Source: a virus
Length of the DNA: 46,393 nucleotides
Virus record (IMG/VR): IMGVR_UViG_3300031364_000005
Coordinates: 1 to 46,393 of that record
Strand: one strand, 5' to 3'
Of the stretch, positions 6,308 through 46,393 are shown one piece after another. Made by a program: the position numbers and the translations under genes. Under the pieces are notes generated by a model, which was not told the DNA's origin, searched no databases, and was given only the letters and a program-made list of their open reading frames with translations. Every line of letters starts with the position of its first letter. The first letter of the stretch is position 1.

Positions 6308-6736
6308 TTAAAGTGATTTATAATTACCTATCGAAATGTCATAATTTTTAAGGCAATAAATGTGCAGCCATTCTATTGCAATTTCTAGCTCTTCTATTTG
6401 CATGTCGCATTTTGGTTGCCAATTAGAAAAATCAAAAATCGCATGTTTCTTTTTTTGTGTAATATAGAAAATCGGGCACTCATCAATAATAAATTCAACT
6501 GCCTTCTCGGGTGTCATTACTAATCCTAATTCTTTGTTACCTCTTATAACTGCGGGTACTATCATCTTCATTATATACCAGACATGGTGATCGTTTGTTC
6601 CAGGTTCAATTACTGATATATCCATTATAAACCTTTTTCCAGAATTAGATTTAAATATATGATTAAACCTTTCTAATCCTGATATAATCGGCTTTCCTGA
6701 ATCTGTTATGTGTCCATAAAGCTCAACATTTTTCAT
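6308..6736 (-). CDS. hypothetical protein in replication operon
   Basis: This is a 142-residue protein that I do not recognise. It is moderately hydrophobic with an ordered alpha/beta composition (MKNVELYGHITDSGKPIISG..., FIMDISVIEPGTNDHHVWYI). Its start shares one base with the stop region of the RuvC-like gene, so translation is probably coupled. The position between resolvase and HNH protein suggests a DNA metabolism role, by context only. Confidence 0.55.
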   Translation of the reverse strand: MKNVELYGHITDSGKPIISGLERFNHIFKSNSGKRFIMDISVIEPGTNDHHVWYIMKMIVPAVIRGNKELGLVMTPEKAVEFIIDECPIFYITQKKKHAIFDFSNWQPKCDMQIEELEIAIEWLHIYCLKNYDISIGNYKSL

Positions 6737-7328: not shown

Positions 7329-8690
7329 TTAGAATTCTAATTCATTTATTTTATCCTGATCAAATTGTCCTTTATATTCGTAAATAGTTGACCATTTATC
7401 TGACCTGTAAAGTGTTATTATACCTGTTGCTCCGTGCCTATGCTTCGCAAATATAAATTCAATTTTATTTTTGTTTTCTTCAGAAACTTCCTTTTCATAC
7501 ACTTCTGGCCGATGAATAAAAGCAACTACATCCGCATCTTGTTCAATTGCTCCTGATTCTCTCAGATCACTTAATACAGGTGTTTTATCTGCCCTTTCTT
7601 CTACTTTTCTCGATAATTGAGATAGGGCAATTACGGGTATGTTTAATTCTTTTGCAATTAATTTTAAACTTTGGGAAATATGAGAAATTTCCCTTTCACG
7701 ATTTTTTGAATGATCAGGGCTCCTCATCAACTGTAAATAATCAACAATAATAAGCTTGATATCATTTTTCCGTTTGTAATATCTTGCTTTCGATTTAAAT
7801 TCATTAATTGTCAATGCAGGGGTATCATCGATTATTAATTCAAGATTTTCAATTTTTCTTTGAGCATTTTCAATTTTTTCCCAATCTTCATTTTTAAAGT
7901 TAGCTTGACGTATAGTCATATTTTCTAAACCTGTCTCAGAGGCTAGTTGTCTGTCATATAGTTCTGTGTCTTCCATCTCTAATGAGAAAAATGCAACAGG
8001 ACAACCATTTTCTGCTGCAATTTTTGCTATTTCCTGAGAAAGACGTGTCTTTCCCATCGCCGGACGTGCCGCTATAATAATTAGATTAGAAGGTTGCCAT
8101 GCCCCAATCGTTTTATTTAACTTTTCCCAACACGGAACTCCGGATAATTTTATTTCTCCTTTAGATATTTCATCTAATATTTTTAATCTTCTTTTGCCTA
8201 TTTCTCCCATTTTTAACCCTATTTTATTTATTGAATTAATTGTAATTCCTGATATTTGTTGTTCTGAAAAATCAATAAGTTCTGATATATCCTCAATTGA
8301 ATCATCATATGCCTTGTGTTGTATTTCTGTAGAGATCCTAATTAATTCTCTTTGAATGTATTTTTGTTGAATTATCCTAGCATGAAATTCAATATGTGCT
8401 GATGATGCAATCCTGTCAGTAAGTTTAGTTAAAAAAGCCGGGCCCCCAACATTTTCGAGTTCATTGCTTTGTCTTAATTTTTCAATTACTGTTAATATAT
8501 CGATTGCTTTATTATCATTGAATAATTGATATATTGATCTAAATATCTTTTGATGTTCTGTCCTATAAAAACTATTTTCAGATAAAATATCTTGAATTTC
8601 TTCAAAAGCTCTTGATTCAAGCATGCAAGCTCCCAATATAGCCTCTTCTAATTCAATATTTTGAGGAGGTACTTTACCTAATTCTATCAT
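7329..8690 (-). CDS. dnaB: replicative DNA helicase, DnaB type
   Basis: This 453-residue protein has normal DnaB length. The N-terminal helical domain begins PPQNIELEEAILGACMLES. The RecA-like domain has Walker A ARPAMGKT near residue 210, Walker B IIVDYLQLM, and the SQLSRKVEERADKTPVLSDL motif with an arginine-finger region DADVVAFIHR. It unwinds the fork as a hexamer. No separate primase or recognisable loader is seen, so it probably recruits host DnaG and is loaded by the winged-helix initiator or by an unrecognised small protein nearby. Confidence 0.95.
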   Translation of the reverse strand: MIELGKVPPQNIELEEAILGACMLESRAFEEIQDILSENSFYRTEHQKIFRSIYQLFNDNKAIDILTVIEKLRQSNELENVGGPAFLTKLTDRIASSAHIEFHARIIQQKYIQRELIRISTEIQHKAYDDSIEDISELIDFSEQQISGITINSINKIGLKMGEIGKRRLKILDEISKGEIKLSGVPCWEKLNKTIGAWQPSNLIIIAARPAMGKTRLSQEIAKIAAENGCPVAFFSLEMEDTELYDRQLASETGLENMTIRQANFKNEDWEKIENAQRKIENLELIIDDTPALTINEFKSKARYYKRKNDIKLIIVDYLQLMRSPDHSKNREREISHISQSLKLIAKELNIPVIALSQLSRKVEERADKTPVLSDLRESGAIEQDADVVAFIHRPEVYEKEVSEENKNKIEFIFAKHRHGATGIITLYRSDKWSTIYEYKGQFDQDKINELEF

Positions 8691-11101: not shown

Positions 11102-11902
11102 TTAAAATAAAGTTGGATTAATTTTATTTATTATACTCTTAGCAAAACCAATTTCTTTAATTTCTTTTTTAGTAATAATTATGTCATTGAGCCAGTTAGT
11201 AGCTAATTTGAAAAAATCTTTTTTTATTTCAAATCCAAATGCTTTTCTATTTAATTCTATTGCAGCAATAATCGTTGATCCGCTTCCTGCAACTGGATCA
11301 ATAATTACATCTCCCTCATCGGTAAATATTTCAATCAATTTCTTTAATAATTTGATGGGTTTTTGAGTTGGATGCAATTTATTAACATCATTTCCATCTC
11401 TTTCCCAATCAATGCAGTTAAATATCATTTTACCATTATTATTAAATTTAGGTAATTTTTCTCTATAAAATAATAGTCCATATTCGCAATTACCTACTAT
11501 TTTCATATTTGCTTTTAAAACCTGTGCTGAAAAATTCTTGCGAAACACTAAATTTATATAATTATTTAATCCATAGCGTTTTGCTAACTCAATGTAATAA
11601 AACTGCGATTCAAATTCACAAAATAATAACATTGCAGGAGATTTCCCTCTTTCCTTTGGTTCCGGCCTTAACATTTTACTACAAAAATGCATAAATTCGG
11701 CAGGTTTAAAATTTTTATCAGTATCAAAAAATTCTTTTCCAGCCAATTCACTTTCACCGTTTTTATTGTTTCCATCTTTGTACCAAGAGGGATTGCTTGC
11801 ATATGCATTATTTCCTAAATTATAAGGCACATCTGCAATTATTAATTGAGCCCTTGGTATTTGATATCTTTTGAAGTTTTGAAAATGATCGTTATATATC
11901 AT
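11102..11902 (-). CDS. DNA methyltransferase (N6-A or N4-C, beta class)
   Basis: This is a 266-residue protein. The catalytic motif appears early as ADVPYNLG (near residues 23-30), where most relatives have DPPY or SPPY, and the AdoMet-binding motif DPVAGSGST lies near the C-terminus. That order defines the beta class. HPTQKPIKLLKKLI precedes the AdoMet motif, as is usual in this class. There is no partner restriction enzyme, so it is an orphan enzyme likely to protect phage DNA or mark it. The DVPY variant may alter base preference. The start at 11902 directly follows the DUF5131 gene. Confidence 0.85.
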   Translation of the reverse strand: MIYNDHFQNFKRYQIPRAQLIIADVPYNLGNNAYASNPSWYKDGNNKNGESELAGKEFFDTDKNFKPAEFMHFCSKMLRPEPKERGKSPAMLLFCEFESQFYYIELAKRYGLNNYINLVFRKNFSAQVLKANMKIVGNCEYGLLFYREKLPKFNNNGKMIFNCIDWERDGNDVNKLHPTQKPIKLLKKLIEIFTDEGDVIIDPVAGSGSTIIAAIELNRKAFGFEIKKDFFKLATNWLNDIIITKKEIKEIGFAKSIINKINPTLF

Positions 11903-11909
11903 ATATGTT

Positions 11910-12740
11910 TTATTTAGGAAATTCTTGAATATTTAAGCGAAGGATATCTTTTTTATCAAAGAATGGAACATTAGCCTCTTTACATTGATTATATAATGAT
12001 TCAATCCATTCTTTTTTCATTGATCTGGATTTTGAGCCTGTTTCCGGCCCGGCAATTACCCATTGCAAACCATATTGAGTTTCATTATTATTAAGCCAGT
12101 TTAAAAATTTAATTTGGCATGCTTCAAGAAGATTAATATTTTCTAATAAAGGTTCTGCACTTATAAAATGAATTTTAGCCGGAATTTGTAATAGAATAGG
12201 TATTCTTTCATTAGCAGTTTTTTGATTTTCAGTTGTTACACCTATCCAAATATGATAAGGAGTACCAATATAATCAAGAGGGTTACTAGAACTACTAGGT
12301 ATAGAATCAAATCCATCATCTTTAACTTTTTGTCCTAACCACCTATAAAACTCTAACATTCTTCCAGGTCTTTTTGTAAGTACTTGAAATGTATGTCTTG
12401 GTGTTTGGCACATGATATCCCATATCTGTAGAATATCATCAAAAGAATTCTTTTCGTGGAACAAATCACTCATAGAGCAAACAAAAATCATCCTGGTATT
12501 TTTCCATTTTGCCGGAATATTTAATGCATTTTCAATAAATAATGTTTTTCCGTTCCATTTTTCTGAATCGTCAACAACATAAACGTAAAAATCTAACTTT
12601 GAACAACTATCTTTTGCTAAAGCCATACATCTTAATCTATAAGCCATTTTTTCAGCATAGCAATTTTGGCATCCTTCTGATATTTTATTGCACCCGATTA
12701 TTGGGTTCCATGTTTCGTTTGTCCATTCTATTTTACTCAT
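11910..12740 (-). CDS. DUF5131 family (phage Gp37/Gp68-like) protein
   Basis: This 276-residue protein begins MSKIEWTNETWNPIIGCNKI, then SEGCQNCYAE, the signature of DUF5131. Further motifs are FVCSMSDLFHE, VLTKRPGRM, WIGVTTENQ and ISAEPLLENI plus WVIAGPETG. The Cys-x7-Cys-x2-Cys pattern and strand order recall radical-SAM barrels of the spore photoproduct lyase group, so a redox or radical nucleic-acid modification is possible; this is not demonstrated. It starts in a 4-nt overlap with the membrane HTH gene and precedes the methyltransferase. The pair is common in phages. Confidence 0.85.
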   Translation of the reverse strand: MSKIEWTNETWNPIIGCNKISEGCQNCYAEKMAYRLRCMALAKDSCSKLDFYVYVVDDSEKWNGKTLFIENALNIPAKWKNTRMIFVCSMSDLFHEKNSFDDILQIWDIMCQTPRHTFQVLTKRPGRMLEFYRWLGQKVKDDGFDSIPSSSSNPLDYIGTPYHIWIGVTTENQKTANERIPILLQIPAKIHFISAEPLLENINLLEACQIKFLNWLNNNETQYGLQWVIAGPETGSKSRSMKKEWIESLYNQCKEANVPFFDKKDILRLNIQEFPK

Positions 12741-14628: not shown

Positions 14629-15516
14629 TTAAAACCCTGGCTTATCGTTTATTTTACTTTCTTCTGATTCCTCTGATTCATTAATCGATTTACCTTTTAC
14701 AGTTTTATGAGGCTTTTCAGTATATTTGTTTTCTGGTAATTCTACCGGTTCAGGCATTGAAGCTAATACTTTTAATGTTTGATTTTGCTTATCTTCAGTC
14801 TGATCTATATGCTCAGATGATTCTATCATAATCATAGCGTCATCAGTACTGTCAATATATTTCTTACATGCCCGGTTTATTACTGTTTTTTCGGCCATCT
14901 TGTCGGTAAAATCCTTATGAGCTTGTGTAAGTCCATTTCCTTGTCGCATTAACCAGGCTTTCTTTATGTCGTGAATTACCATTATTTCAATGTCCTTTTC
15001 ACCATCTGGCCGAATCACAATTGCATATGCCCCCTTTATTTTATCTTGATTTATATTTTCAAGTTTCGGTACATGCTTAATTAACTTTTTCAACCCAGTT
15101 TCAAGATTTACTTCATATTCGAATTCATCACCGTCATAAATAGTATGTGCAAAAATGTCAACAACACCTGAGTATCTTTTTGCGAGAAGTTTTGATCCTT
15201 CATATGAACGCTGGCATATAAGCTTATCGCCATAAACAATAAAATAACACTGTTTTTTTAATGGGTTTAATCCCTGGGTAATCATATAAAGCAATGAATT
15301 TGCAATACTTGGTTTTGTACATACTTCAAGTGCCGGCTTTTTGTTTTTGTCTACTATTTCAGCTAATACTAATCCAGCGGCCTGGATAGCATTCTGTATT
15401 GAATAATCTGAAGGTAAATTTAATCCACCAGCGTTCTTTATCTCTTCGATTCTCATCATTGTTTCGTCAACGATTGATTTCTGAATTTTTGCAACTGTTT
15501 CTTTCTTATTTTCCAT
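14629..15516 (-). CDS. recT: RecT-type single-strand annealing protein
   Basis: This protein has 295 residues. The RecT core is clear: LEVCTKPSIANSLLYMITQG, LNPLKKQCYFIVYG, KLICQRSYEGSKLLAKR, GAYAIVIRPDGEKD and MAEKTVINRACKKYIDS. The C-terminal 70 residues are polar and low complexity, typical of the variable tail that contacts partners such as SSB. It overlaps the DUF3820 gene by 11 nt and precedes the MBL nuclease, forming a phage homologous recombination module. Frequent RecT activity may also help shuffle the octad repeats. Confidence 0.95.
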   Translation of the reverse strand: MENKKETVAKIQKSIVDETMMRIEEIKNAGGLNLPSDYSIQNAIQAAGLVLAEIVDKNKKPALEVCTKPSIANSLLYMITQGLNPLKKQCYFIVYGDKLICQRSYEGSKLLAKRYSGVVDIFAHTIYDGDEFEYEVNLETGLKKLIKHVPKLENINQDKIKGAYAIVIRPDGEKDIEIMVIHDIKKAWLMRQGNGLTQAHKDFTDKMAEKTVINRACKKYIDSTDDAMIMIESSEHIDQTEDKQNQTLKVLASMPEPVELPENKYTEKPHKTVKGKSINESEESEESKINDKPGF

Positions 15517-29063: not shown

Positions 29064-29512
29064 TATATTATTTTTTCTTCAATTATTTCTTCCTTAGTGT
29101 TATCCCAAATAAAGGACCTATTTAATTGTTCAATAGTATCTGATATTACTATCTTATCATTTGATATAATAGATACTGAGCTATTAATGTTTCCTAATGA
29201 ATTCAAAACTTCTAAATCAGCCTTTGCATCTCTTTCAATAAAATTCCTGCCAGAACTACTGATATTATTTTCGTTCAACGATTTTTCAAGTAAACTGTTC
29301 ATTTGAAACTGTTCATCTAAAAATTCATTGCCCCACCAGTCAAACCTTTCTTCTCCTTCAATCTCATTTCCCGTTGTTGAGGCTTCAACATTTCCTCCAA
29401 AGTGAGCTAAGTACGGCATATTGAAAAGACCTTGAGTGGTTTCAATATCACCATTATCTTTTAACTTTATTTCTCCGCCATTTCCGGATTCATATATTAT
29501 TATGTCAATCAT
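29063..29512 (-). CDS. baseplate protein, Mu gp46-like
   Basis: This 149-residue protein has LKDNGDIETTQGLFNMPYLA near the start, the ERFDWWGNEFLDEQ motif near the middle, and FIERDAKADLEVLNSLGNI after it. These match the GP46 family of Mu-like baseplates (functionally like gpW/gp25). It is flanked by the tape measure and gp47-like genes with one-base overlaps. In Mu, gp46 comes after gp45; here it comes first, so the module order is rotated. Confidence 0.7.
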   Translation of the reverse strand: MIDIIIYESGNGGEIKLKDNGDIETTQGLFNMPYLAHFGGNVEASTTGNEIEGEERFDWWGNEFLDEQFQMNSLLEKSLNENNISSSGRNFIERDAKADLEVLNSLGNINSSVSIISNDKIVISDTIEQLNRSFIWDNTKEEIIEEKII

Positions 29513-31443
29513 TAGAATGTATTTGTAGTTACTGGTATTTTTGCTGAGTTAGTTTTTACATTAGCATTTTTATCTGTTTTGTTTGTCAGTTCAATTGCTA
29601 AGTTATTCTGCATTTCTGTAAGGGCATTTGTGTTCGCTTCTGAACTTGCCGCTTGTGTATTTACAGGTTTTTCATTATTGACGTTTAATTCTGCTTGAGT
29701 CCCTTTTGAAAATTTATCAATTAATTTCATTATTGGATCTAAAACTGGCCCAGATATTTTTTTTATCCATTCCCATAAGTTAACTATTAAACCCCAAACC
29801 CATTTGAACGTAAATCCCATCGATTTAAATACAAATTTTACCGCATTAATAGATTTAATCAATAAATCAAATGCTTTTGTTTCTTTAAATTTTGCAAGCA
29901 TTATTTTAAATTTATCTATTACCCATGTAATTGCAAATTTCAATGCTTTAAAATATAATATAAATGGATAAATATATGCCCTGATAAATTTTGCAAAGAA
30001 ATTGTTTGATGTCTTAATCCAATTTATTATTTCTTTCCATTTTACAATTAACAATACAATTGCGGCCACTAGAGCAATTATGCCTATTACTATCCAGGTA
30101 ATAGGATTTGCCCAAAGCGCTGCACTGAATAGCCATGTTGCCGCTGATGCTATTTTTGTTCCTATCGCATAAGCTTTCATAGCTACTGAACTTGCGGCAA
30201 GCGCAATCGGTACTGACGCCTGGGTTGCGTACATCAAACCTGTTGCAACGTTGAAAGCTAATGTAGCAGCTCTAATTGTTGTCATCAAAATATAATAAGA
30301 ACCAAACGCCGTGATCAGAGTTCCGACTACAACTAATATTTTATCTAAATTCCTTGTGACTAAATCAATTACTTTCCCGAATTTGTCAAGTATTTTTGAA
30401 TTTTCGTTTCCTTTTATAATTAGGTTCTCAAATCTTGCCTTTAACTCCTGTAATTTAATATTAAAGGATTTGGTGTTTATTTCGGCTTGTTTATAAGCCA
30501 TATTTGTGCCTGTTACCCCTTTTGTATACTCATCAAAAAGAGCTTTATTGTTTAAAATAATCTTACCGGCTGTAATATTTTCAGCCCCAAATATTTTCGA
30601 TGCAAATGCATCTCTTTCTTTTGCATTTGTTAATAATGCCATTTTTTTATTAGCTTCATCAATAGCATCATTTATGTTGAATATTCCGGATTGATAACCC
30701 AATTGCGCTTTTTGTAGTTTTAAAATTACCCCCCTGGCTTTTGTTCCGGCCTCGGCACCTTTTAATTGATATTTTCCTAAAACTTCGAGTAATGCAACTC
30801 CCTGCTCCATGCTCAAATTAGCATCAGCCATTACAGTACCTGAATTTTTCATAGCCTCAGTTATCTCAGATATGTTTGCAGCCCCAACAACCGAGCCAGC
30901 AGATAACACATTTATTGCCCTATTGGCATGTTCAGCACCTAAACTAAACTGGTTTAATACACCCGTAACATTTCTGGCAGAAACTTCTAAACTATCCTTT
31001 GACGCTTTAGATAAAACAATTGCAGCTTCAGTAACCTTACTTAAAGCTTTTGCGTCTTTTAAAAGTTCAGGTTGAGCACTACCTACTAATTCAAATGCTT
31101 TATTAACATCGTACCCGGCTTTTTTAGTCCTGTTTGCAACATCAACTACCTCCTTTTTTAATATATCCAAATCACTACCTACCATCCCAGTTATTGCACT
31201 CAAAGAATTTAATGATTCATCGAATTTTGTAACAGCCGATGTACCTGTATATAATAATGAACCGATTGAAAGCCCTCCGGCAACAGATAATAATTGACCA
31301 CTAACATTTGACATCGTACCCCTTAATTTATTGTATGCAGCATTTTGTTTGTTGGCAAAATTAGTATTAGCCCTTTCCATTTGTTTTAAAATCGGGCTCA
31401 TCTTGTCTACTGCTTTATATATTGTCGAAAGTGTAAATGCCAT
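29512..31443 (-). CDS. tail tape measure protein
   Basis: This 643-residue protein starts MAFTLSTIYKAVDKMSPILK and has the TP901-type core (KFDESLNSLSAITGMVGSDL, VANRTKKAGYDVNKAFELVG, VTGVLNQFSLGAEHANRAIN). Hydrophobic segments in the middle (ILVVVGTLITAFGSYYILM, TWIVIGIIALVAAIVLLIV) are typical for membrane insertion on DNA injection. A low-complexity C-terminus follows. Length implies a tail of roughly 0.1 micrometre by the usual 1.5 A per residue rule (inference). Its ATG shares one base with the stop of the frameshifted chaperone (TAATG). Confidence 0.9.
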   Translation of the reverse strand: MAFTLSTIYKAVDKMSPILKQMERANTNFANKQNAAYNKLRGTMSNVSGQLLSVAGGLSIGSLLYTGTSAVTKFDESLNSLSAITGMVGSDLDILKKEVVDVANRTKKAGYDVNKAFELVGSAQPELLKDAKALSKVTEAAIVLSKASKDSLEVSARNVTGVLNQFSLGAEHANRAINVLSAGSVVGAANISEITEAMKNSGTVMADANLSMEQGVALLEVLGKYQLKGAEAGTKARGVILKLQKAQLGYQSGIFNINDAIDEANKKMALLTNAKERDAFASKIFGAENITAGKIILNNKALFDEYTKGVTGTNMAYKQAEINTKSFNIKLQELKARFENLIIKGNENSKILDKFGKVIDLVTRNLDKILVVVGTLITAFGSYYILMTTIRAATLAFNVATGLMYATQASVPIALAASSVAMKAYAIGTKIASAATWLFSAALWANPITWIVIGIIALVAAIVLLIVKWKEIINWIKTSNNFFAKFIRAYIYPFILYFKALKFAITWVIDKFKIMLAKFKETKAFDLLIKSINAVKFVFKSMGFTFKWVWGLIVNLWEWIKKISGPVLDPIMKLIDKFSKGTQAELNVNNEKPVNTQAASSEANTNALTEMQNNLAIELTNKTDKNANVKTNSAKIPVTTNTF

Positions 31444-43636: not shown

Positions 43637-45673
43637 TTAAATGCCGGATTTTTTTATTATATCGCAAAATTTACCCCAACTTACATCTTGAACTTTACTA
43701 GCTTTTAAGAAATAATCTACGAATATATCTCTTAATGCCGGAGTATACACCGCGCAATCCCAAAAGTGATTATCGACAGTGCTATGTTTTTTCTTCCAAG
43801 TATAACCAACTTCTGAACCATCTGCATTTAGTTTTGGTACCTTATGTTCTGACTCAAATTGTTTGAAATAATTCTTATATGAATATTTGCCATCAGCTGG
43901 ATCTGGAAAATTCATAAATCCAACCGGTTGAGAAATTCCGCTATCATCTGACCACACAAACTCAATCCTATCTGCAATTAAATCTTTCAACTGATTAACC
44001 TCGAACAAAAATAAATTCTCCCTTTCTCTTGATTTCTTATAAAAGTCTGTGTCGGCCCCTAATTTTCGCACCTTATTAGTATCACCTTTTAATCCAATTG
44101 TCATTAATGGAACTGGCTCATATTGCATAACATCAATAAATATATATGCATATTGGGTGAAATTACCTGTATCTATGCCAGAAATCATTATTGTATAATT
44201 TTTACCTGATGCCCCTTTATAAACTTTTTGCAATATTTGTTTTTTAAAGAAATCAAAGGCATTATTTATTCGCTCATTATTTCGATAAGTCCACAATTCT
44301 CTATTTTCCTGAGATAATTTCCTATGAAAAGTACCAATTGAACCGGCATCTATTGAATAAGTGCACCCTGTTTCTGAATGTGCAACAACCTCATAATCAA
44401 TCCTAGCATCATCTATTTTACCATTTAGGTCACATGAGCAGGTAAGCATTATTATTTTACCATTGCCATCTTGTTCCGATAAAGTATCTGGTATAGTACC
44501 GATTGTATATCCTCGCGTATTAGTTGCAAGTTGGCTAATCTTTGGGGCCTTCCCTTGTTCCTCGTAAGTTTGACCTAATACAAGATTTAAGAATACCTGT
44601 AAGTTTCTTTTCTTAACAATACCTGCCGCTGGAAATATCTTAATCCATTGCATCGCATGATGGGTCCAATCAAAAAATCCAGGCGGTGAATATAATCCGG
44701 ATATATGATAACTATACCAATCTGGCCGGCTCGGTTCGGCTGTTGGTTTCCAGATTCCATTGATTAGCATTTCTTTTTTATGGTTTTCTTTGAAAAATCC
44801 TTTGCATTCCTGGCATATATAACCTACTGAGCTTTCGATTAAATGTCCTTTATCATCTTTTTCAAAGTAAACTCCAACCTGTTCTTTTGTTTCTTCATCA
44901 ATTTGATACCATTTAAGGTCAATATAGGAACCGCATAATGGACATGGCATGAAATAATAACGCTGGTCACCCATCATGAACGCTGGTTCTATGAGGCTAT
45001 TTTGTTTTATCTCAGGAGTAGATATGAAACAAACTTTCATTAGGTCCTTAAATGAGTTAAACCTCATTAAAACCAAGTCAATAATATCCCCTGCTTGTTT
45101 CTCAGCTCTTACAGCTGCCTCGAAATCATCAAAGAAACCATATCTGAATGAGTTCTGCCTAATTTTATCTACTGCTTTAATTGACTGAGCCATCAAAGAA
45201 CCGCCTGGAAATTCTTTCATATTGTTAGTATCACCGGTCCTTTTATTGTTTTTCTTTATTGTATTTGGCCGGATAAAACCTCTAAGTCCTGAGTGTTCAA
45301 TCATCTGATCAATCTTCTTTACCATCTGGCCTTCACTCAATTCTTTGTCGGCTGATGTTAAAATAATGTTCCCAGGATAATTTTTTATGATATATCCAAT
45401 CCCTGTTTCAATAAAATTAGTTGATTTTCCAATCTGTGCACCCCCCATTATAGATAATAGCCTCATCGGATGATCTGGACTTAGTGTATTTACCGGCTCT
45501 TTCCAGTATGGAAACCTATCATAACTAACTTTACCAGGGAACGCACTGACATCGGGAGTTAATATTCTATTCTTTTCTGCCCATTCTGATGGTAATTCCT
45601 GAGATATTTTTGTTTTAAAATAGTCCCTTGCAAATTGTAACAGTAGTTCTGTGTTACTTTCTTGCATTTTCAA
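43637..45673 (-). CDS. terL: terminase large subunit, lambda GpA type
   Basis: This 678-residue protein is of the GpA family: WAEKNRILTPDVSAFPGKVS, PFWKEP-like residues (FPYWKEPVN), the P-loop region LLSIMGGAQIGKSTNFIETG near 72-90, Walker B FFDDFEAA, a zinc-like CPLCGSYIDLKW and CQECK pair, and nuclease-domain residues (VDNHFWDCAVYTPALRD). GpA-type enzymes cut at cos. It overlaps the small terminase gene by 20 nt. The accessory cassette follows its stop codon, splitting it from gpW. Confidence 0.95.
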   Translation of the reverse strand: MKMQESNTELLLQFARDYFKTKISQELPSEWAEKNRILTPDVSAFPGKVSYDRFPYWKEPVNTLSPDHPMRLLSIMGGAQIGKSTNFIETGIGYIIKNYPGNIILTSADKELSEGQMVKKIDQMIEHSGLRGFIRPNTIKKNNKRTGDTNNMKEFPGGSLMAQSIKAVDKIRQNSFRYGFFDDFEAAVRAEKQAGDIIDLVLMRFNSFKDLMKVCFISTPEIKQNSLIEPAFMMGDQRYYFMPCPLCGSYIDLKWYQIDEETKEQVGVYFEKDDKGHLIESSVGYICQECKGFFKENHKKEMLINGIWKPTAEPSRPDWYSYHISGLYSPPGFFDWTHHAMQWIKIFPAAGIVKKRNLQVFLNLVLGQTYEEQGKAPKISQLATNTRGYTIGTIPDTLSEQDGNGKIIMLTCSCDLNGKIDDARIDYEVVAHSETGCTYSIDAGSIGTFHRKLSQENRELWTYRNNERINNAFDFFKKQILQKVYKGASGKNYTIMISGIDTGNFTQYAYIFIDVMQYEPVPLMTIGLKGDTNKVRKLGADTDFYKKSRERENLFLFEVNQLKDLIADRIEFVWSDDSGISQPVGFMNFPDPADGKYSYKNYFKQFESEHKVPKLNADGSEVGYTWKKKHSTVDNHFWDCAVYTPALRDIFVDYFLKASKVQDVSWGKFCDIIKKSGI

Positions 45674-46283
45674 TGTTTTTGAATCCTACTTCAATCTCTT
45701 GCAAAGCTAAATCCTGACATGAATTTATAATGTTAATTGATTTTGAGCACGTATTTTTAATTATGATATTATCTGCTTGAACTTCATTTAATGAATCTCG
45801 GATCAAAACATTCAATTGCTGCTGCAAGTTCATTATGAATCTATTCAGGTAACTATTCAGCATTAAACCGACATCATCCCTTGAAATTAATTTATTGAGT
45901 TCCTTTTCATTCTTTAATTTTGCGGCAATAATCTCCTGTTCTATTTTTTGCTGCTTCAGCCGTTCACCTTTAAGAATGAAGTTAGTTGTTTCCTCATCTT
46001 TTTTATTCGCATTCTTTATCTTTTGCTCTGAACTGGCATATATTTTAGTTTCTACTAACTCTTGTTTGGTTGTTTTTACTACTTTTTTTTTAGGATGAGT
46101 ATTATTTTTATTCTCAGGAGTTTGTTTTAATTCTCGCTTTTCAAGATAAATTTTATTTATTGGATTTTCAGTATCAAATTGACCGTCTATAATAATTACT
46201 TTACCTCTATCTTTTTGCTTATTCAATGTTTGAGGCTTTACCCCCAATAGTTCTGCTATCTCAGATGTCTTATATATTGCCAT
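45654..46283 (-). CDS. terS: terminase small subunit, Nu1-like
   Basis: From ATG at 46283 the product has 209 residues (MAIYKTSEIAELLGVKPQTL); the longer frame from 46388 adds a basic 35-residue tail and is less likely. The first 40 residues form a winged-helix/MerR-like DNA-binding domain as in lambda gpNu1. The rest is coiled coil and ends in a region for TerL contact. It is expected to bind the repeats at 46297-46346. Confidence 0.8.
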   Translation of the reverse strand: MAIYKTSEIAELLGVKPQTLNKQKDRGKVIIIDGQFDTENPINKIYLEKRELKQTPENKNNTHPKKKVVKTTKQELVETKIYASSEQKIKNANKKDEETTNFILKGERLKQQKIEQEIIAAKLKNEKELNKLISRDDVGLMLNSYLNRFIMNLQQQLNVLIRDSLNEVQADNIIIKNTCSKSINIINSCQDLALQEIEVGFKNIENARK

Positions 46284-46296
46284 TGTTGCAATTTTA

Positions 46297-46346
46297 TAAG
46301 ACAAATATACAATTTTTAAATTTGTCTTAAGACACTCATTAAGACA
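46297..46346. promoter_or_regulatory. TAAGACA repeats upstream of terS (cosB-like) and -7 box
   Basis: TAAGACA occurs at 46297-46303, 46328-46334 and 46340-46346, and inverted (TGTCTTA) at 46323-46329. TAAGACAAAT (46297-46306) and ATTTGTCTTA (46320-46329) form a 10-bp inverted repeat with 13 bp between. Their position in front of the small terminase gene matches R sites of lambda cosB. A TATATTTG -7 box (46302-46309, minus strand) overlaps them. Confidence 0.55.
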
Positions 46347-46393
46347 TTTTATAAAATGGTCTGATTTTTTTTTTTTCGCAATCCGCAACGTAT

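Follow-up and report, generated by a model that had tools for sequence, protein, structure and literature searches.

The window analysed here is an entire IMG/VR record of 46,393 bp, placed in the IMG/VR class "linear". Its packaging genes are grouped at the high-coordinate end on the minus strand, so that the natural left-to-right reading is the reverse complement of the window, with the window edge as bp 1; positions given below as "bp" are counted from that edge. The terS gene (45,654-46,283, minus strand, ATG at 46,283) encodes a small terminase subunit of 209 aa that matches PHROG 57 (terminase small subunit, E-value 2.4e-06) and carries an N-terminal winged helix-turn-helix, as recognised by a structure model and a fold search. 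The terL gene (43,637-45,673, minus strand; its start codon may alternatively be the ATG at 45,667) encodes a large terminase of the lambda gpA type, with both the ATPase and the endonuclease domains of a lambda-type terminase detected by Pfam (GpA_ATPase, PF05876, 1.2e-48; GpA_nuclease, PF20454, 1.4e-32). The same group includes genes for a lambda-family portal, a head protease of the Clp type and a major head protein of the cap_E type. Genes of the early region encode an N6/N4 DNA methylase (11,102-11,902), a DUF5131 protein (11,910-12,740), RecT (14,629-15,516) and a DnaB helicase (7,329-8,690).

Repeats between the window edge and terS

Four TAAGACA motifs had been reported upstream of terS in a preliminary description of the window, and all were recovered by word searches on either strand (46,297-46,303, 46,323-46,329, 46,328-46,334 and 46,340-46,346), at 14-63 bp from the ATG. 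The inverted repeat given there as 10 bp is present but longer, being a perfect 12-bp palindrome, TGTCTTAAGACA (46,323-46,334), set within a pair of 16-nt arms that match at 88%. Read in the natural direction, the motif is TGTCTTA. The first R-like site starts at bp 48 (46,340-46,346, minus strand), close to the position of R3 in lambda, which occupies bp 50-65 from the left cohesive end (PMC9026076). The second lies 12 bp from the first, at bp 60 (46,328-46,334, minus strand), a spacing also found in relatives, and an inverted copy at bp 65 (46,323-46,329, plus strand), retrieved by the word and inverted-repeat searches, completes the palindrome. The third, also identified by word search and comparison with relatives, is at bp 91, 31 bp from the second (46,297-46,303, minus strand), and overlaps the terS promoter box. 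An extra TAAGACA within terS codons 4-6 (46,266-46,272, plus strand) may be due to chance.

TAAGACA shows no enrichment across the whole window (8 copies seen, 8.0 expected), so it is the clustering of the motif, rather than its overall frequency, that exceeds chance: five of the eight copies fall within the last 128 bp. Within the 96-bp gap between cos and terS, four copies of one 7-mer were counted, versus 1.68 in dinucleotide shuffles (p=0.003, which is the floor of this test). The earlier suggestion of cosB-type repeats adjoining cosN is supported by the copies at bp 48, 60 and 91 and the inverted copy at bp 65, and the TGTCTTA repeats are considered as putative TerS-binding sites, probably the counterpart of the cosB R sites.

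The high-coordinate edge and the predicted cohesive ends

Relatives were collected from two IMG/VR scans, which yielded more than 100 loci. Because neither DNA patterns nor tblastn with TerS alone found any terS relatives, TerL was used as the query. Searching viral contigs with a broad pattern for the cosQ-cosN pair gave mostly chance matches and was rejected. No description of the cos sites of these phages was found in the literature searched.

Read from its high end, the window starts with ATACGTTGCGGATTGCGA (46,376-46,393, minus strand), an extended cosN-like block of which bp 1-17 are conserved in 44 relatives. With a 16-nt cosN profile trained without the window, the window edge is the top match over both strands of the whole window (12.2 bits). 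Relatives were retained for the analysis of contig edges when their contig started at most 260 bp from terS (64 relatives), and the motif was accepted at 8 bits or more. In 33 of the 64, the contig starts at offset 0 or 1 of the cosN-like motif, compared with 0.15% of random places; 27 of the contigs starting at the motif, window included, were outside the profile training set. The nearest full relatives, L135 (TerL 67%) and L200 (TerL 53%), have the same first ten bases as the window, ATACGTTGCG. The records of two Ficleduovirus phages start about 100 bp before terS, with TATGTGTTGCGATCGGCGAAA (FCV-1) and TATAGGTTGCGCATTCGCGAAA (FL-1), to be compared with ATACGTTGCGGATTGCGAAAA for the window, 110 bp before terS. 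In addition, three pairs of contigs from different assemblies are near-identical at the cut, where L196, L198 and L194 stop and L197, L199 and L195, respectively, read through. The contig of L238 opens with Illumina adapter sequence fused to ATGTATGCGCACCCC, and this start is a fragment ligated at the natural chromosome end.

In the preliminary description, cosN was expected about 50 bp past the repeats; the last copy lies 47 bp from the edge, and cosN is placed at the edge itself. The contig-start pile-up, the near-identical phages that read through, the adapter-joined contig and the terminal repeats of five relatives (below) all identify the high edge as the cosN cut. It is very likely that the phage chromosome is naturally cut at the right edge of the window, next to candidate docking repeats for the packaging enzyme, and the contig would stop at this left cut because it had reached the end of the virion DNA. 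A headful (pac) phage, for which the contig edge would be an arbitrary assembly break and the repeats a pac site, is very improbable: variable, circularly permuted ends are its signature, whereas independent contig edges coincide here on the same aligned base beside terS in 33 of 64 relatives, as for a unique fixed chromosome end. The terminal repeats of 12-13 nt and a TerL of the gpA type also argue against it.

These terminal repeats were found in five full-length relatives of 45-53 kb, in each of which the two ends share 12-13 nt: ATGCGTTCAACC in L136, ATAGGTTGCGCAT in FL-1, ATACGTTGCGTAC in L200, ATAAATGCGAAGC in L265 and, with one mismatch, ATAAGTCG(T/C)AAG in L235. Such repeats are the product expected from the fill-in of 5' overhangs of 12-13 nt. 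Cohesive ends of about 12 nt are indicated through these relatives, the window's own right end being missing. For the window, the left cohesive end is predicted to be a 12-nt 5' overhang, 5'-ATACGTTGCGGA-3' (46,393 down to 46,382, minus strand), with the edge as the cut, on the basis of the relatives' contig starts, of the terminal repeats and of the first 10 bases shared with L135 and L200. For FCV-1 and FL-1, a 12-13 nt 5' overhang is predicted at ATGTGTTGCGAT or ATAGGTTGCGCA.

The polarity of the overhang would be 5', since both ends keep the repeat. Strand polarity is not directly visible in contig data, which leaves room for other kinds of fixed end, with 3' overhangs or a short, blunt repeat at the termini, in place of 5' cohesive ends; this is judged quite improbable, because both ends retain the 12-13 nt, as fill-in of a 5' overhang gives, and because lambda, with a TerL of this type and a matching layout, ends in 12-nt 5' overhangs. 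Overhangs of the 3' type are normally removed by end repair.

An element resembling cosQ, (A/G)GGT[A/C]CT, precedes the cut by 23-26 nt in 14 loci that read through it, and is also present at the right ends of L136, FL-1, F27, L200, L235 and L265. In the lambda record, GGGTCCT, which is cosQ, stands 23 nt from the end, and the exact lambda heptamer occurs in L160 and L247. The cosQ site has been described as highly conserved and 7 bp long (PMC4669245).

Some of the records examined contain sequencing artefacts or redundant ends. The RefSeq record of FCV-1 (NC_041845.1; right end, 6,426-6,451 of locus L006) ends in CTGTCTCTTATACACATCT; as this is a Nextera transposon end, the record includes adapter sequence and is without the genuine right end, which is visible in FCOV-F27. 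The FCOV-F27 record (L009, L010) has two overlapping ends, so that cos is present twice in a linear record. The IMG/VR contigs of L221 (1-33) and L238 (1-22) open with Nextera and Illumina adapter sequence.

Repeat geometry and the TerS protein

The geometry of the repeats was compared between the window and its relatives, a set of 49 phages without redundancy. Of these, 14 carry an exact direct 6-mer repeat spaced by 12 bp, where 1.4 would be expected and no lag exceeded 7 in any of 500 shuffled sets; the first copy is at bp 47-53 in all 14. A spacing of 31 bp was found in 8 of the 49 (1.15 expected), and an excess of 7-mer repeats had been obtained in an earlier set of 27 (Fisher p 4e-10). 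More than half of the relatives are without an exact 12-bp-spaced repeat, and a strict three-copy model (12 + 31 bp) was rejected, since it fits only some relatives and the third copy is inverted in others. The repeat words vary between phages and mostly start with TGT or TGC (TGTCTTA, TGTATTA, TGTATAC, TGTTTTC, TGTAACA, TGCAACT, TGTTGAC and TGTAGTT, among others); that of L200 is TGTATAC. Between cosN and the repeats, in a conserved block at bp 33-44, where lambda has I2, an element ..ACC.TTTT (bp 33-42; 46,352-46,361 in the window, minus strand) is conserved, with column information above the shuffle limit and a T at bp 40 in 43 of 44 relatives; it may have a comparable function. In lambda, the distance between cosN and cosB is critical (PMC9026076). 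Comparison of these loci indicates that dozens of Bacteroidota-type phages have this lambda-like arrangement in common, each with a repeat word of its own.

The structures of 29 TerS sequences were modelled with AlphaFold2, giving a confident N-terminal winged helix (pLDDT about 90) followed by a long C-terminal region of helices; the mean pLDDT was 82.7. The best PDB matches of the N-terminal domain by Foldseek were BldC and 7lwr, 7lw0 and 7lxs (titled viral DNA packaging motors), with lower-ranked matches to 6hn7 (Rpp/TerS complex) and 1j9i (gpNu1). Probabilities were 0.54-0.87; the E-values for TerS domains were weak (0.4-1.6), as expected for a domain of 55 residues. In these models, the fold appears to resemble the DNA-binding domains of phage 21 and lambda TerS (gpNu1-like winged helix-turn-helix), and it is MerR-like, a fold common to transcription factors such as BldC.

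A Bacteroidota-type -7 promoter box of terS, TATATTTG (46,302-46,309, minus strand), overlaps the third repeat; the TAnnTTTG box is present in the cos-terS gap of 37 of the 49 phages (6.9 expected). This overlap and the MerR/BldC fold of TerS N-domains would also suit repeats that are operators of the terS promoter, autoregulatory or bound by a phage repressor, with a real but separate cos cut. Such a role in place of packaging is considered unlikely, because the repeats are fixed in position relative to the cut (first copy at bp 47-53), matching lambda R3. The repeats may nevertheless serve both as operators and as packaging sites, and autoregulation of terS by TerS is conceivable.

Taken together, the final 110 bp of the window are interpreted, with a probability of about 0.88, as a left chromosome end of the lambda cos type, nicked by a gpA-type TerL with TerS on the TGTCTTA repeats. 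Comparison between the phages shows the position of the cut, the 12-13 nt terminal repeats of the relatives and the conserved layout. Binding of TerS to the repeats and nicking by this TerL would then proceed as follows. The winged helix-turn-helix of TerS, on TGTCTTA at bp 48, 60 and 91 (and the inverted copy at bp 65), would position TerL, which would nick concatemeric DNA at cosN to leave the 12-nt 5' overhang ATACGTTGCGGA. Packaging would begin at the left end, with terS entering the head first, and would finish at the next cos, where the cosQ-like GGT[A/C]CT is expected 23-26 nt before the cut.

Phages whose repeat words agree tend to have matching recognition helices (TGTAGTT in L141 and L143, TGTTTTC in L146 and L165). 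With TerL similarity held constant, covariation between the R word and the TerS recognition helix was weak (partial r 0.15, p 0.03, with R words taken by eye) and was absent in distant pairs. It is tentatively proposed, at somewhat less than even odds, that across this phage group cosN, cosQ and the R spacing stay constant, that the R word changes freely and the TerS recognition helix changes with it, which would create a lineage-specific packaging address, and that TerS, because the third R site lies on the terS promoter, represses its own gene when bound at cos.

The low-coordinate edge and comparison with known systems

At the low-coordinate edge (1-60), inspection against relatives found neither a cosQ-like GGT[A/C]CT nor a second copy of the 12-nt cohesive sequence. 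The edge lies outside any clear gene, as had been noted; without the cosQ-like site and the second cosN half, it does not reach the right end of the chromosome. The missing stretch is at least about 44 nt, possibly longer. The proposal that the window is a complete cos genome of about 46 kb is therefore not supported: its 46.4 kb are near the length of complete relatives (45.0, 46.3, 46.6 and 47.0 kb), but completeness at both ends is very unlikely given this low end. The low-end TAGTACAATGTAA resembles an altered AGGTACTGTAA, the cosQ-like 11-mer of relatives, and was not counted because the core GGT[A/C]CT is absent. An exact AGGTACTGTAA at 30,831-30,841 (minus strand) is within a tail gene (29,512-31,443) and is probably due to chance. 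Searches with exact end 20-mers detected this phage in no further contig, so that the missing right end was not recovered, and its placement by synteny with three genomes (G001, G002 and G015) failed for want of shared genes. Reading frames in the first kilobase are only short and broken, and an exact 44-bp direct repeat lies near this end (302-345 and 2,088-2,131).

Chromosome ends can be obtained for a large group of uncultured phages using assembled contigs alone, and many "linear" IMG/VR records begin at a natural end; a cos signature would aid in orienting and completing metagenomic phage genomes. The lambda recognition code rests on few phages (lambda, 21 and N15), and about 49 natural TerS/R-site pairs with a fixed geometry would make a small-terminase recognition code testable.

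The site is best described as a lambda-type cos left end, apparently a variant whose cosB-like repeats have a constant geometry and differ in sequence between phages. It shares with lambda cos the putative TerS repeats from near bp 50, the order terS then terL after the cut, a gpA-type TerL and a winged-helix TerS; its relatives further share the 12-nt cohesive ends and a cosQ-like site 23-26 nt before the cut (exactly GGGTCCT in two of them). It differs in its cosN and R words, in the arrangement of the repeats (R3-I1(IHF)-R2-R1 over 120 bp in lambda, a 12-bp direct repeat then 31 bp here) and in having the terS promoter within the repeat array. As for the specificities of phages 21 and N15, near-identical cosN and cosQ are combined with differing R words and TerS recognition helices (PMC4669245), but the word varies here in most of 49 phages, versus a few lambdoid types. 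The Ficleduovirus phages of Flavobacterium columnare (FCV-1, the FCOV phages and FL-1) have a TerL 37-38% identical, a terS gene that lies about 100 bp inside the end of the record and the same cosN-like and cosQ-like elements, whereas their R-like word is TGCAAC and the record parts examined carry no cos annotation. The nearest relatives have extra genes between terS and terL (L135, 782-2,840, including methyltransferase-like genes; L191, 818-1,681). Finally, BldC/MerR-type regulators share the small winged-helix fold of the TerS N-domain, but are transcription factors and not packaging proteins.
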